Of a stretch of DNA of 64,000 bases, positions 35,617 to 40,864 are shown one piece after another. Both the position numbers and the translations under genes were made by a program. Source of the stretch: Bacteroidota bacterium (GTDB lineage: Bacteria; Bacteroidota; Bacteroidia; 2-12-FULL-35-15). The DNA lies in the NCBI GenBank assembly GCA_025963725.1, contig JAOQAE010000006.1:124001-188000 (forward strand), written 5' to 3'. The notes under the pieces are model-generated. The model was not told the DNA's origin, did no database searches, and was given only the letters and a program-made list of their open reading frames with translations. Each line of letters begins with the position of its first letter. Position 1 is the first letter of the stretch.

Positions 35617-37029
35617 TCATTTTTCCAATAGTTTATTTTTTATCGGCTCCACCAATGTGTCGATGTCGCCGGCGCCCATCGTGAGCAATACCTCCACTCC
35701 CATTTTTGAGATCTCCTCCACAAGGTCTTTTTTCTGGCAGATCATCCTCTTCGCATTTTTCATCTTGTCCAGCAGCATCTGTGAATTCACGCCATCGATG
35801 GGCAGCTCACGCGCCGGGTATATTTCCAGCAGGATGCATGTATCGAGCAGGTCGAGGCTTGCTGCGAAGTCGTCGGCGAAATCACGCGTACGGCTGAACA
35901 GGTGCGGCTGAAAAACACCTGTGATCTTCTTCCCCGGGTACATCTCCCTTGCCGAGCTGATCGTTGCTTTCAGCTCTTCGGGGTGATGCGCGTAATCATC
36001 GATATATACAAGCTGCTCCGTTTTTACCTGGTAATCGAAACGGCGCTTCACTCCGCCGAATGTGCGCAGCGCTTCCTTGATGTACACTTCCGAAATGTGC
36101 AGCTCGCAGGCAATTGCCGTAGCGGCAATGGAATTTTCCACGTTGTGCTTTCCGGGAAGGCCCATTGTGCAATTCTGCATCAGCCCTTTCGGAGTGTGGA
36201 TGTTGTAATGGTAATAGCCGTCAGCTATGCGGATGTCCGATGCGTAATAATCGGCATACCGGTCATCCACAGAATACGTGATGGGCTGCTTTTCTGAATT
36301 GATCTTTTCCGCAATGCTTTTCTTTACGATCAGCTTTCCTTCCACAAGGTTGGCAAACATGGAAAACGATTCTTCGACCTGGCCTTTATCACCGTAGATA
36401 TCGAGGTGGTCGGCATCCACAGATGTGATGACCGCGATCTCGGGATGCAGGGTTAGGAATGAGCGGTCGTACTCGTCGGCTTCAACGACAATGAGCGACC
36501 TCACCCCAGCCCTCTCCAAAGGAGAGGGAGCACTGAGATCCTTGCTCAACAGCAGGTTTGTTTTGTAATTCTGCGTGATGCCGCCAAGGAATGCGGAAGG
36601 ATCAAGTCCCGCCGTTTTCAGGATATGCGCTACCAGCGATGATGTTGTTGTTTTACCATGTGTTCCGGCCACAGCGATCGTACGTGCAGATTCAGTGATC
36701 AACCCTAATACCTCAGCCCTTTTTTTAATGTTAAACCCATTACTATTAAAAAAAACGTATTCGCTGTGGCTTTTTGGAACAGCAGGTGTATAGACTATTA
36801 AGATGTGAGATCTGAGATCTGAGATCTCAGATTTAAAACCTTCGGGGATCAGATCGATATTGTCTTCAAAATGAATGCTGATGCCTTCCGCGATCAGCTC
36901 ATCCGTAAGCTTTGTTGGTGTTTTATCATAACCGCTCACCTGCTTTCCCATGGCGTGGAAATAGCGCGCGAGCGCACTCATGCCGATGCCGCCGATACCA
37001 AGGAAATAGATGTGTGTTATGTCTTTCAT
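35617..37029 (-). CDS. murC: UDP-N-acetylmuramate--L-alanine ligase MurC, with two in-frame insertions
   Basis: The enzyme adds L-Ala to UDP-MurNAc in peptidoglycan synthesis. It has the N-terminal IYFLGIGGIGMSALA loop and the ATP motif AGTHGKTTTS. The ATG at 37029 gives 470 residues and the usual start MKDITHIYFLGIGG; the frame upstream is only a repeat element. Two short segments are not part of the normal enzyme: SEISDLRSH (67-75), encoded by a GAGATCT-type repeat, and APSPLERAGVRS (167-178), encoded by a palindromic element just before VVEADEYDRS. Both keep the frame and avoid stops, so the enzyme is probably still made. The start also lies directly against another copy of the palindromic element. 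Confidence 0.95.
   Translation of the reverse strand: MKDITHIYFLGIGGIGMSALARYFHAMGKQVSGYDKTPTKLTDELIAEGISIHFEDNIDLIPEGFKSEISDLRSHILIVYTPAVPKSHSEYVFFNSNGFNIKKRAEVLGLITESARTIAVAGTHGKTTTSSLVAHILKTAGLDPSAFLGGITQNYKTNLLLSKDLSAPSPLERAGVRSLIVVEADEYDRSFLTLHPEIAVITSVDADHLDIYGDKGQVEESFSMFANLVEGKLIVKKSIAEKINSEKQPITYSVDDRYADYYASDIRIADGYYHYNIHTPKGLMQNCTMGLPGKHNVENSIAATAIACELHISEVYIKEALRTFGGVKRRFDYQVKTEQLVYIDDYAHHPEELKATISSAREMYPGKKITGVFQPHLFSRTRDFADDFAASLDLLDTCILLEIYPARELPIDGVNSQMLLDKMKNAKRMICQKKDLVEEISKMGVEVLLTMGAGDIDTLVEPIKNKLLEK
36496..36535 (-). repeat. Palindromic element in frame within murC
   Basis: Core CTCTCCAAAGGAGAG, with flanks GACCTCACCCCAGC and GGAGC. Read on the minus strand it encodes APSPLERAGVRS. 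It shares most bases with the murD copy (40798-40836). Confidence 0.85.
36803..36834. repeat. GAGATCT tandem repeat in murC
   Basis: Repeated GAGATCT units, partly palindromic (TGAGATCTGAGATCTCAGAT). It encodes the SEISDLRSH insertion, which standard MurC proteins lack. Confidence 0.75.
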
Positions 37030-37030
37030 T

Positions 37031-37077
37031 TTGACCTCAGCCCTTCGTCCCCTCTCCAAAGGAGAGGGGGCAGGGCT
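37031..37077. repeat. Palindromic element in the murG-murC gap
   Basis: Core CCTCTCCAAAGGAGAGG flanked by TTGACCTCAGCCC and GGGCAGGGCT. It ends two bases from the murC start codon. Confidence 0.8.
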
Positions 37078-37089
37078 TATTTGTATTGG

Positions 37090-38205
37090 TTATTTATTAC
37101 TTTTATTGTTGATCAAACTGATCACTTCATTCGCTATAACGATAGCAGAATCGGGCAAAGCGAGCCTTGCGATGTTCTCCGACAATTTAAAGCAGGCTTC
37201 TTCATCCTTCACCAGTTTCACCGCCTGCTCCTTCAGCTTCTCTTTTGCTTCGCTGTCCTTTATGATGATCGCTGCATTATAGGTGACCAGCGCCATCGCA
37301 TTTTTTGTCTGGTGATCTTCCGCAACATTCGGAGATGGAATTAAGATCGTTGGTTTTTTAACGAGGCATAATTCGGAGACAGAGCTTGCTCCTGCACGCG
37401 AGATCACTACATCCGCAACAGCGTACGCGAGGTCCATCTTCTGGATGAAATCAAATGCCTTCATGCCGTTGTCTTCGTATTTCGCAACCGCCTGCTTTGC
37501 TGTATCCGCATATCCTTTGCCTGTTTGCCAGATGAGCTGGATGTTATTTTTTGCGAATTCTTCGAGGCACAGAGAAATACTTTCGTTGATGGTTCGGGCA
37601 CCGAGGCTTCCGCCGATCACGAGAATGGTTCTCTTATTTCCATCAATCCCGAACAGCTCCAGCCCTCTTTCCCTTTTACCTTCCAGGTTAAGAATATCCT
37701 GCCGTACAGGATTCCCGGTAAGGATGATCTTTTCTTTCGGAAAGAATTTTTCCATACCGGCATACGCCACGCAAACACGGTCTACCTTCTTTGAAAGAAG
37801 CTTATTTGTAATTCCCGCGTAGGAATTTTGTTCCTGGATCAGCGTTGGAATTCCGTGCCTTGCCGCCACCTGCAGCATCGGGCCGCTTGCAAAGCCGCCT
37901 GTTCCGATCACCGCATCGGGTTTAAACGATCTTAATATTTTTTTCGCTTTGCGAAGGCTGCTGAGCACCTTAAACGGAAATGCAAGATTGGATAAGGTAA
38001 GCTTCCTCTGGAAACCCGAGATCCACAAGCCTTCTATCTTATAGCCGGCAGCAGGCACCTTTTCCATTTCCATTTTGCCTTCGGCACCTACAAATAAAAA
38101 TTCGGTATCAGGCCTTAATGCTTTAATAGCGTTGGCAATAGCGAGGGCCGGGAAGATATGTCCGCCCGTGCCTCCTCCGCTCACTATGATCCTAAGCTGC
38201 TGCAA
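37090..38205 (-). CDS. murG: UDP-GlcNAc--undecaprenyl-MurNAc-pentapeptide GlcNAc transferase MurG
   Basis: A 371-residue GT28 glycosyltransferase that makes lipid II at the inner face of the membrane. It has the glycine-rich N-terminal [19 protein letters not shown], the middle [14 protein letters not shown], and the donor-binding region [24 protein letters not shown]. The start is taken as the TTG at 38205, because AGGAGG lies five bases upstream; the frame extends further but is then inside ftsW. On this reading murG overlaps the end of ftsW by 14 bases. An element copy lies between it and murC. Confidence 0.95.
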
Positions 38206-39343
38206 CAGAACCTCCTTCCCCGCCGGCTTCCGACTCACGGCTGACACTTAAAATAATTCCGATCGCAATGCTGGTGAACCAGATGGATGTTCCACCCATG
38301 CTGACAAGCGGAAGCGGCTGTCCGGTAACCGGGAATAAATTCACGGCGACGGCCATGTTGATCATCGCCTGGAACACAAGGCTGAATGTAAGCCCGACTG
38401 CAAGAATACTTCCAAACGCTTTCTCACTTTTATTCGCAATGCGGATGCCCCGGAAGAGCAGCACGATGTACAGGAACACGATGACGACTGCCGTCATCAA
38501 TCCCCACTCCTCGATTACGATCGCGTAAATAAAATCGGAAGATGCCTGCGGAAGAAAGTTCCGCTGAATGCTGTTCCCTGGCCCTTTGCCCATCACACCG
38601 CCGGTGGCGATGGCGATCTTCGCCTGCTCCGCCTGGAAGTTACTTTCACTGTCGCCGTTTTGAAAATTCTCTAACCTTGCCTTCCAGGTGGGCCCGCGGG
38701 GGATCACATCGGGGAAGTTCCAGATCAGCGCAAGCAGCAATGTAATAAATACTAACCCCGAACCGATCAGCAGCCACAGGTGCTTTGCATTCATCCTGCC
38801 CACGAACATCAGCACAAGACAGTTCAGGAACAGCAGCGCCGCAGTTGAAAAGTTAGCCGGCAGGATCAATGCACAAATGATAGCTACGGGAATGATGATG
38901 GGAAGAAATGCCTGCTTAAAATCCTTGATCACATCCTGCTTGATGGACAACATCCGCGCAACGTAGGTGATCAGGGCAAGCTTGGCAAAATCGGAGGTCT
39001 GGAAGGTAAGCGAAGTACCCGGAATTGCCAGCCAGCGGCTTGCTTCACCGGCGCTCACTCCTTTCAGCAAGGTGTACAGCAGCAATGGCGCTGCGAGGAA
39101 AATAGCGATCTGGGAGATGCGTGAAAAATATGAATATTTAACTTTATGAATGAGGTACATCAGGAAGATCCCGGAACCAACAATGAAGATATGCTTGATG
39201 AGGTACGAAGCGGTATCACCATTCTTATACCTGTAAGCAAGCGCCACCACGGAGCTGTAAACAACGAGCACCGAGAGGAGGGAAAGCAGGAGCACTACTG
39301 TCCAGATCACCTTATCGCCTTTTATATACTTTAACAGGTTCAT
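38192..39343 (-). CDS. ftsW: Lipid II polymerase FtsW
   Basis: A 383-residue SEDS-family membrane protein with about ten membrane helices. Landmarks are [42 protein letters not shown] and the closing [25 protein letters not shown]. It polymerises lipid II into septal peptidoglycan together with a class B PBP, here the FtsI-like gene of the same cluster. It lies between murD and murG; the last codons carry the murG ribosome-binding site. A 120-base gap separates it from murD. Confidence 0.97.
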
Positions 39344-39463: not shown

Positions 39464-40864
39464 TTACAATGCACGAACAGCTTGCTTGAACTGGGTACCG
39501 CGGTCCTCGTAGTTCTCAAACATATCAAAGCTTGCGCAGGCAGGCGACAACAACACTGTGTCTCCTTTTTTACCAAGCTTGTATGCGTGCGCCACTGCTT
39601 CTTTTGCAGATTTAGCTTCAACGATGGTATCCACCATTTCGCCGAAGGCTTTCATGATCTTCTTATTATCTGTTCCGAGGCAGATGATCGCCTTCACTTT
39701 TTCTTTGATCAGTTCATTCAGCATGGAATAATCGTTGCCCTTATCCACTCCGCCAAGGATCAGGATCACCGGATTGTTCATGCTCTCGAGCGCGTACCAG
39801 GTGGAGTTCACATTGGTTGCTTTCGAGTCATTGATAAATTCGATGCCGTGAACATTTCCCACTACCTCGAGGCGGTGATCGATGTTATGGAAGTCGGAAA
39901 GACTTTCGCGGATCGTCTCTTTCCTGATGTCGACTAATTTTCCTGTAACACCTGCCGCCATAGAGTTGTAGATGTTGTGTTTACCTTGTAATGCGAGTTC
40001 CTGAATTGTCATAAATAAGGGATTTGTGTTGTTTGTGTTGATTATTAGCTGATTGTTGTCTTTTAAATACGCTCCTGTTTCCAGCTCCTTTTTGATCGAA
40101 AAAGGATACTGCCTTGCATTGACCTTCTTTGTCTTCATTGTGCTCATTGTCACTTCATCGTCTATGCAGTAAATGAATGCATCATCCGCTGTCTGGTTCT
40201 GTATGATCCTGAACTTGGAATCGGCATAGTTCTCCAGCTTGTAATCATACCTGTCAAGGTGATCCGGAGTTATGTTCAGCAGCACCGCGATGTCGGCTTT
40301 GAACTCATACATCCCGTCGAGCTGAAAGCTGCTCAGCTCCAGCACATAGTAATCGAAATCATTTTCTGCGACCTGCATCGCAAAGCTTTTTCCTACATTT
40401 CCCCCGAGGCCTACGTTCAGGCCTGCCTTCTTCAGCATGTGATAGGTAAGCAGCGTGGTTGTTGTTTTTCCGTTGCTTCCCGTGATGCAGATCTTTTTCG
40501 CTTTCGTATACCTTCCTGCGAATTCTATCTCCGAGATCACCGGCGTGCCTTTTGCATGCAGCGCTTTTACAAGCTCCGCCTTATCGGGAATGCCGGGGCT
40601 TTTCACCACCTCGTCGGCATTCAGCACCAGCGCTTCCGTATGCTTTTCCTCTTCCCACTCTATACCGTATTTTAAAAGAACTTCCTTGTATTTATCCTTC
40701 AGCTTTCCTTTGTCGGAAAGAAAAACTTCGTATCCGTTTTTTTGCGCAAGCACCGCAGTGCCTACACCGCTCTCTCCTCCACCAAGTATCACGAGGCGTG
40801 ACCTCGCCCCAACCCTCTCCAAAGGAGAGGGAGCATTATCATCGTTATTTGCTTTTACACTCAT
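39464..40864 (-). CDS. murD: UDP-N-acetylmuramoyl-L-alanine--D-glutamate ligase MurD, with element-encoded N-terminus
   Basis: The enzyme adds D-Glu to UDP-MurNAc-L-Ala. It has the N-terminal RLVILGGGESGVGTAVLAQK, the ATP motif ITGSNGKTTTTLL and the FINDSKATNVNSTWYALES region. MurD normally begins a few residues before LVILGGGESG. Here residues 11-22 (APSPLERVGARS) come from a copy of the palindromic element, so the element sits in frame between a short start (MSVKANNDDN) and the Rossmann domain. No other in-frame start exists between the element and LVILGGG, so the extension is probably translated. Confidence 0.95.
   Translation of the reverse strand: MSVKANNDDNAPSPLERVGARSRLVILGGGESGVGTAVLAQKNGYEVFLSDKGKLKDKYKEVLLKYGIEWEEEKHTEALVLNADEVVKSPGIPDKAELVKALHAKGTPVISEIEFAGRYTKAKKICITGSNGKTTTTLLTYHMLKKAGLNVGLGGNVGKSFAMQVAENDFDYYVLELSSFQLDGMYEFKADIAVLLNITPDHLDRYDYKLENYADSKFRIIQNQTADDAFIYCIDDEVTMSTMKTKKVNARQYPFSIKKELETGAYLKDNNQLIINTNNTNPLFMTIQELALQGKHNIYNSMAAGVTGKLVDIRKETIRESLSDFHNIDHRLEVVGNVHGIEFINDSKATNVNSTWYALESMNNPVILILGGVDKGNDYSMLNELIKEKVKAIICLGTDNKKIMKAFGEMVDTIVEAKSAKEAVAHAYKLGKKGDTVLLSPACASFDMFENYEDRGTQFKQAVRAL
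40798..40836 (-). repeat. Palindromic element in frame at the start of murD
   Basis: Core CTCTCCAAAGGAGAG flanked by GACCTCGCCCCAACC and GGAGCAT. It encodes APSPLERVGARS on the minus strand. Confidence 0.85.

Follow-up and report, generated by a model that had tools for sequence, protein, structure and literature searches.

In-frame palindromic repeats within bacterial protein-coding genes are already known. RPE-1, RPE-4 and RPE-6 of Rickettsia are described as small palindromic repeats that lie in frame in genes for functional proteins, and RPE-4 and RPE-6 are assigned to the CGTC REPs (PMC3733652). The same account places GTAG/CGTC REPs within conserved genes, tRNA synthetases included, and reports that recB of two Xanthomonas species was hit by a REP at about one site (Di Nocera et al. 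2013, PMC3733652). Frame-preserving REP insertions are also described in the subclass 2.4 tnpAREP genes of Bacteroidetes and Cyanobacteria (PMC6006769). A separate literature concerns homing nucleases of the EDxHD family, which are linked to introns or inteins and among which a DUF559-containing gene has been placed (PMC9403480); elsewhere a DUF559 protein is described as Vsr-like (PMC12907096). Finally, the ShiLan domain and a lone LAGLIDADG in phage methylases are presented as stop-free inserts without known splicing that are linked to homing endonucleases (PMC11855218). The element family described here bears on all of these systems, as it appears to connect a translated palindrome with a nuclease domain read in the frame of its host.

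The window (the whole stretch of 64,000 nucleotides that was analyzed, from an uncultured Bacteroidota bacterium) contains a murC gene with a palindromic element in its middle (Table 1). The original prediction placed this element at 36496-36535, which is slightly wide, as the plus-strand letters GACCTCACCCCAGCCCTCTCCAAAGGAGAGGGAGC occupy 36497-36531. Its further claim, that the element adds residues 167-178 (counted from the ATG) to MurC in frame and without a stop, holds: the minus-strand murC frame reads it as APSPLERAGVRS, within the stretch SAPSPLERAGVR of the protein. Both alignments shown to solved MurC structures have a gap at the position of this peptide, in line with the expectation that standard MurC goes without it. 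In an AlphaFold2 model of the source MurC (mean pLDDT 92.8 for the whole), the block 171-180 has a mean of 63 and sits between two strands. The minus-strand RNA of 36496-36540, which covers the murC copy with its flanks, has a folding z of -4.17. Scored against a 32-position model of the element, the murC copy reaches 32 of 32, compared with at most 22 for 720 shuffled models. The 15-nt core occurs three times in the window, all in one orientation, with 0.14 copies expected (up to two mismatches), and the murC element is confirmed as beyond chance.

Table 1. Positions of the palindromic element, its copies and its host genes, counted from the first letter of the window.
Feature	Position	Strand	Remarks
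murC, host gene	35617..37029	-	ORF; NCBIfam TIGR01082 match, E = 4.1e-113
Solo palindromic element, A orientation on plus strand	36497..36531 (35 nt)	+	inside murC
Palindromic core CTCTCCAAAGGAGAG	36512..36526	.	15 nt
Second copy	37033..37071	+	orientation as in murC; directly upstream of murC ATG
murD, host of third copy	39467..40864	-	TIGR01087 (L012:153-1568:-)
Third copy	40800..40834	+	orientation as in murC; in frame near MurD N-terminus

The second copy falls between the murC ATG and the next ORF (37090-38247), which is presumably murG. With the ATG at 40864 as start, the MurD N-terminus containing the third copy reads MSVKANNDDN-APSPLERVGARS-RLVILGGG. Elsewhere in murC, GAGATCT direct repeats at 36806-36835 are read in frame as SEISDLRSH. 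This stretch may be a second translated repeat of the gene, since both solved-MurC alignments shown are likewise gapped at it.

A genome-wide search found 19 exact copies of the core in the 4.79-Mb source genome, so the element is abundant elsewhere, in keeping with the original prediction; 26 copies are found at up to one mismatch. The core read backwards, as a control, gave no exact match and one match at one mismatch. An oriented, CTC-rich head lies on one constant side in all 26 copies and includes ACCTC in 24 of them. The distance between head and stem varies among copies, and for this reason a fixed-spacer pattern search found the element at only two places; a general inverted-repeat search at default settings reported no inverted repeat. 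No GTAG or GTGG tag is present in any of the 26 copies on the 5′ side of the hairpin, searched to 30 nt on the A strand and 20 nt on the T strand, and a CGTC tag is found in these intervals in one and two copies, respectively. The element of the source genome does not carry the tag of the GTAG/CGTC REP superfamily. Among assembled genomes, at least some of them metagenome-derived, the exact core is present in 32 of 59 genomes and in 18 of 296 genomes of a phylum sample (source included in both), with 35 copies in G026, 22 in G014, 17 in G010 and six in G006. The element consensus, worked out by hand, is stop-free in five of six frames. The exact core letters had no match in open-licence papers.

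Seven of the 26 copies lie in a frame that is open for at least 60 residues on either side. Six of these frames match conserved families, namely murC, leuS, valS, ileS, metH and an FAD-dependent monooxygenase; the seventh (L011) runs opposite the start of murC and is unlikely to be a gene. Both strands and several frames of the element are used, giving peptides such as APSPLERAGVRS, SLSFGEGRAEA, DLSLALSKGEG and LSPNPSPKERG. Alignments shown to solved ValRS and IleRS have a gap at the element, and with solved LeuRS a longer stretch of the source LeuRS around the element is left unaligned. Insertion of the palindrome in the reading frame of host genes is well supported by these comparisons, and the element appears to be a palindromic repeat in frame within functional genes in the manner of the RPEs. 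The inserts are presumably translated and tolerated. The likeness to Rickettsia palindromic elements that had been proposed is fair as regards behavior, because in-frame copies occur in other conserved genes and relatives have vacant sites; the GTAG/CGTC REP tags are absent as a shared feature. In this form, the initial interpretation of the murC element is supported.

The same loops were compared across relatives by scoring 30 loci each of murC, valS, ileS and leuS (120 loci, mostly from members of the genus) with the 32-position model. At a score of at least 23, a cut-off chosen after the scores were seen and one that the 720 shuffled models do not reach, matches were found at three murC, seven valS, four ileS and nine leuS loci (23 of 120); the leuS loci are the best-scoring 30, and leuS copies split by a nuclease unit are under-represented among them. 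Matches are confined to one loop per gene in murC, valS and ileS, and lie at several sites in leuS. In murC, the source, G031 and G030 carry the element (three of 30 loci), in a diverged form in the latter two, and it was not found in the loop of the other 27 of 29 genus loci examined, as had been anticipated for relatives. The nearest genome, the sister species G018, has a murC loop unrelated to that of the source and a valS that is without the element at 98% protein identity. The valS of G008 and the ileS of G019 carry the element in the orientation opposite to the other carriers, which points to separate insertions. In G014, G026 and G005 (scores 24, 25, and 23) the valS match is not the exact element but a shorter palindrome related to it.

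On a tree of 32 genus members, built from those genomes that have two or more of the four genes and without the valS carrier G013, the least number of changes is three for murC (three carriers of 30), four for valS (six of 29) and three for ileS (four of 23), as well as seven for leuS site 1 (seven of 27, labelled by peptide). By parsimony, the three murC carriers would be separate gains. Each loop may be vacant, contain the element in one or the other orientation, or be occupied by other repeats, such as the repeat-like peptides TPNPSQEG and STFDSAQDKPG in valS and FKVQSSKFKVG in leuS. The genus murC loop likewise contains unrelated repeat-like peptides (L028-L056), for example NSELRTPDSEL (L034) and NSRLRSPDSEL (L051). 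Repeats of several families seem to use these loops as landing sites. The ileS of the source and of G032 (L203/L204) also has a further extra stretch around PYPAAGKEME that is absent from the other 28 aligned loci.

A larger form of the element is found in the leuS of G019, where two inverted copies with cores 388 nt apart enclose an in-frame stretch matched by PF04480 (DUF559). A search with PF04480 gave 112 matches in 45 of 59 genomes, of which the best match of each of 30 genomes was analyzed. At 21 of these 30 loci the domain is embedded in a frame of more than 300 residues; 18 belong to the genus and one each to three other families (G040, G042, and G058). With a cut-off of 24, again chosen after the scores were seen and compared with at most 21 for 1180 shuffled models, 13 of the 21 embedded domains have an A-oriented palindrome to their left and 13 a T-oriented one to their right; nine have both ends and 17 at least one. 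No palindrome in any other orientation scored at the 21 embedded loci, and none at all at the nine free-standing DUF559 genes (Fisher's test for 17/21 versus 0/9, P = 5e-5). At the lower threshold of 23, every one of the 21 embedded loci has an end in the expected orientation, as do two of the nine free-standing genes, and one free-standing gene has an end in another orientation. A placement of 25 of the 30 loci at threshold 23 (embedded, nine of 18 with both ends and 17 of 18 with one; free-standing, two of seven with one end; 500 shuffles at most 23) is superseded by the count over all 30.

Family searches covered the hosts of nine of the 21 embedded units and identify MetH (at two sites), acetate-CoA ligase (in two genomes), LeuRS, IleRS, HsdR and PaaZ; the remaining 12 hosts were named from the peptides on either side of the unit. 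The L316 host, also among the nine, has no NCBIfam family match and an ATPase match below the cut-off only, and its frame stops shortly past the right palindrome, so in L316 the unit does not interrupt an intact host. The HsdR, a type I restriction subunit with the DUF559 unit inside (L294), is that of G042, from another family. The source genome has a single unit, within acs (G000:C5:302005-302319), whose palindromes reach 25 and 27 of 32. They are therefore a variant of the murC palindrome, and the murC copy does not stem from them directly. The source genome also has two overlapping PF04480 matches at G000:C3:71615-71934, one of them with stops, which suggests a decayed DUF559 gene.

The DUF559 domain gives profile matches to 3hrl (E = 7e-30) and to 3r3p, a "Mobile intron protein" (E = 3.7e-5) that we take to be I-Bth0305I. 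D44, E55 and D57 are invariant across the 21 embedded domains, and the domain appears to be of the PD-(D/E)XK type with the conserved acidic residues of EDxHD/DUF559 homing endonucleases. Although the domain is related by profile to the EDxHD homing endonucleases, the units differ from these in being in-frame fusions with palindromic ends in which no splicing element was found. Specifically, no intein domain was detected in six DUF559-bearing proteins (Pfam, E <= 1e-5), whose inserts match PF04480 and, below the cut-off, MTES_1575 only (in L316, DUF559 alone), and no group I or II intron RNA was found in the inserts in a Rfam gathering search of 10 loci (six units and four solo palindromes). 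The sole Rfam match in that search, to the group II intron RNA RF00029 (L293, 3113-3187, minus strand), lies near the metH unit of G015 and outside the insert. The nuclease units are apparently unspliced.

Comparison of individual host sites reveals several states. In acs the insert is 148 codons long (query residues 287-434 of 785), and the query aligns to most relatives as two near-abutting pieces, about 1-286 and 435-785, with the unit left out. Of 30 acs loci examined, four are filled and 26 are without the unit; by eye, G040 has a solo-like palindrome and G026 a short scar-like form, and the other 24 have no palindrome. Site 2 of leuS (the same best-scoring 30 loci, with unit-split copies under-represented) is short in most genomes, has palindrome-like peptides in several, such as APSPSGEGRGEAE in G010, and holds a nuclease in G013, G004, G019, G040 and G058. 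The source metH reads GACCTCACCCCCAACC and then continues as host sequence, with the palindrome head breaking off where G018 has a complete unit, and looks like an in-frame deletion scar. On a tree of 31 DUF559 domains, nine host-site groups require nine label changes (the least is eight), compared with a mean of 19.1 for shuffled labels, none of 200 of which was as low; the host labels were family-checked for nine of the 21 embedded loci and taken from flanking peptides for the rest. At metH, two separate nuclease lineages occupy one site. As far as assembled genomes can indicate, occupied and unoccupied alleles thus seem to exist at fixed sites with a site-specific nuclease lineage, as with homing endonucleases. 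Such sorting by site would be the pattern of homing, yet vertical descent after one insertion per site predicts the same sorting; against vertical descent stands the filling of acs, at only four of 30 loci.

Together, we read the murC insert as probably, though by no means surely, a homing-like element that is translated, in the form that has no nuclease. A small mobile palindrome would enter surface loops of host proteins and persist there since most of its frames are free of stops. Its larger form would consist of a palindrome (A), a DUF559 nuclease domain and a palindrome (T), in frame and unspliced in housekeeping enzymes. The nuclease is predicted to cut unoccupied alleles of its own host gene, and repair would then copy the unit into the cut allele. 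Solo copies would be internal deletions of such units, or would have spread with the help of the units. Nuclease activity and homing are thus predicted from domain and site patterns, and descent of the murC copy from a nuclease unit is likewise our conjecture. The 30 murC loci examined all lack a DUF559-sized frame, and the copy in murC may therefore be a solo palindrome that came by another route. The number of palindromes per genome correlates weakly with that of DUF559 (rho 0.39, P 0.018, in 36 genomes; with the 26 that are 90% complete or better, rho 0.26, P 0.20), and no embedded DUF559 is among the matches listed for the copy-rich G026 and G014. Among 12 stretches picked for close pairs, nine have an inverted pair whose cores are separated by 59-149 nt, which leaves no room for the nuclease; two have pairs of nuclease size and one a pair in the same orientation.

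The alternative that retains most weight, although we consider it unlikely, is that a RAYT/IS200-type (Y1) transposase spreads the element, which would be a REP without a tag, and that DUF559 is chance cargo between two REPs. Closely spaced inverted palindromes of the kind that characterizes REPINs do occur in relatives (the 59-149 nt pairs of G005, G008 and G019), and Y1 transposases are common, being found in 48 of 59 genomes. In G034 a Y1 frame follows one copy at a distance of about 240 nt, and in G021 a pair, one member with two mismatches, is about 1.3 kb behind another Y1 frame; copy number also correlates with Y1 (rho 0.31, P 0.07) about as weakly as with DUF559, which does little better. 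On the other hand, G010 and G006, with their 17 and six copies, have no Y1_Tnp match at E <= 0.001, and the core (up to two mismatches) is absent from 19 of 21 Y1 loci and present at two, these loci being one from each of 20 genomes, not all of them element-carrying, plus the source gene. The lack of GTAG and GTGG tags in the 26 copies is a further point against this alternative, and chance cargo hardly explains DUF559 domains with identically oriented ends in several hosts. Moreover, the single Y1 match of the source genome adjoins different palindromes. At this locus (L059, G000:C6:384022-384366) the palindromes are of another kind, around GCTCCTACGGAGC, and the Y1 frame reads YILNQAEHH near the expected tyrosine. 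A consistent RAYT link was not seen in PF01797 counts or in the flanks of the 21 Y1 loci.

A quite improbable alternative separates the two components, such that the palindrome is an independent selfish repeat and DUF559 nucleases carry palindromes because they tend to integrate at existing ones. Solo palindromes are more numerous than embedded units in the source genome and elsewhere, for example in G004 and G026, the palindrome frame differs ahead of a similar nuclease start, and the acs site shows, by eye, a solo palindrome in G040 and a short scar-like form in G026. However, the 24 palindrome-free acs loci imply that the site was usually not palindromic beforehand, and the scoring ends of embedded units are all in one orientation. 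It is very improbable that the inserted peptides are adaptive, for example as regulatory loops under selection: the leuS element is near consensus in G000, G010 and G031 though adjoining codons differ, but the use of several frames, both orientations and unrelated repeats in the same loops does not point to a selected peptide. An ordinary variable MurC loop that resembles the repeat by chance or slippage is the least credible reading, and although the loop does vary among the genus loci examined, this reading is already contradicted by the full score of the murC copy against shuffled models and by the 26 near-identical copies, each with its oriented head, that are scattered over unrelated places.

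Under the preferred reading, that of a translated, homing-like element with a nuclease-free form in murC, this family has both likenesses to and differences from the described systems. Like the Rickettsia elements, a likeness judged by behavior and not by sequence, it consists of in-frame palindromic repeats in protein genes; it differs in belonging to another phylum, in having no CGTC tag, in the nuclease domain that related palindromes flank, and in sharing its loops with several unrelated repeats. With the intragenic GTAG/CGTC REPs it has in common conserved hosts, including tRNA synthetases, and recurrent use of sites, whereas it has no GTAG/GTGG tag, no consistent CGTC, and an association with DUF559. 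REPINs and BIMEs share with it the inverted pairs of relatives G005, G008 and G019, but the murC copy is single, the head is ACCTCACCCC, and the core is at two of 21 Y1 loci. The tnpAREP REPs likewise leave the reading frame unbroken, there in the transposase gene itself and here in housekeeping enzymes. In ShiLan the HNH is out of frame in a phage gene, unlike the nucleases here, which are in the host frame of bacterial enzymes.

In-frame palindromic repeats as such are thus described for RPEs and intragenic REPs (PMC3733652) and for tnpAREP REPs (PMC6006769). What appears new relative to that literature is the link between such repeats and a nuclease that is read in frame, apparently without splicing, inside housekeeping enzymes; neither in-frame DUF559 insertions nor such a palindrome-nuclease tie was found in open-licence papers, those on DUF559 being covered mostly by title. 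There is a fair chance that the full nuclease unit deserves a class of its own. We suggest more tentatively, as a proposal that could nearly as readily prove right as wrong, that translated homing cassettes are a new class of mobile element, in which a palindrome-ended nuclease sits unspliced in acetyl-CoA synthetase, methionine synthase, and leucyl- and isoleucyl-tRNA synthetase, would be tolerated there owing to its place in surface loops, and sheds or supports nuclease-free palindromes in other essential proteins such as MurC. One palindrome family is tied to an embedded nuclease, with filled, vacant, solo-like and scar-like states at single sites, and these states make the origin of translated repeats directly testable. 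Annotation may mistake such proteins for new domain fusions. The family would offer a route by which conserved proteins gain new loops or whole domains, and it suggests that there are mobile elements whose survival depends on their translation.
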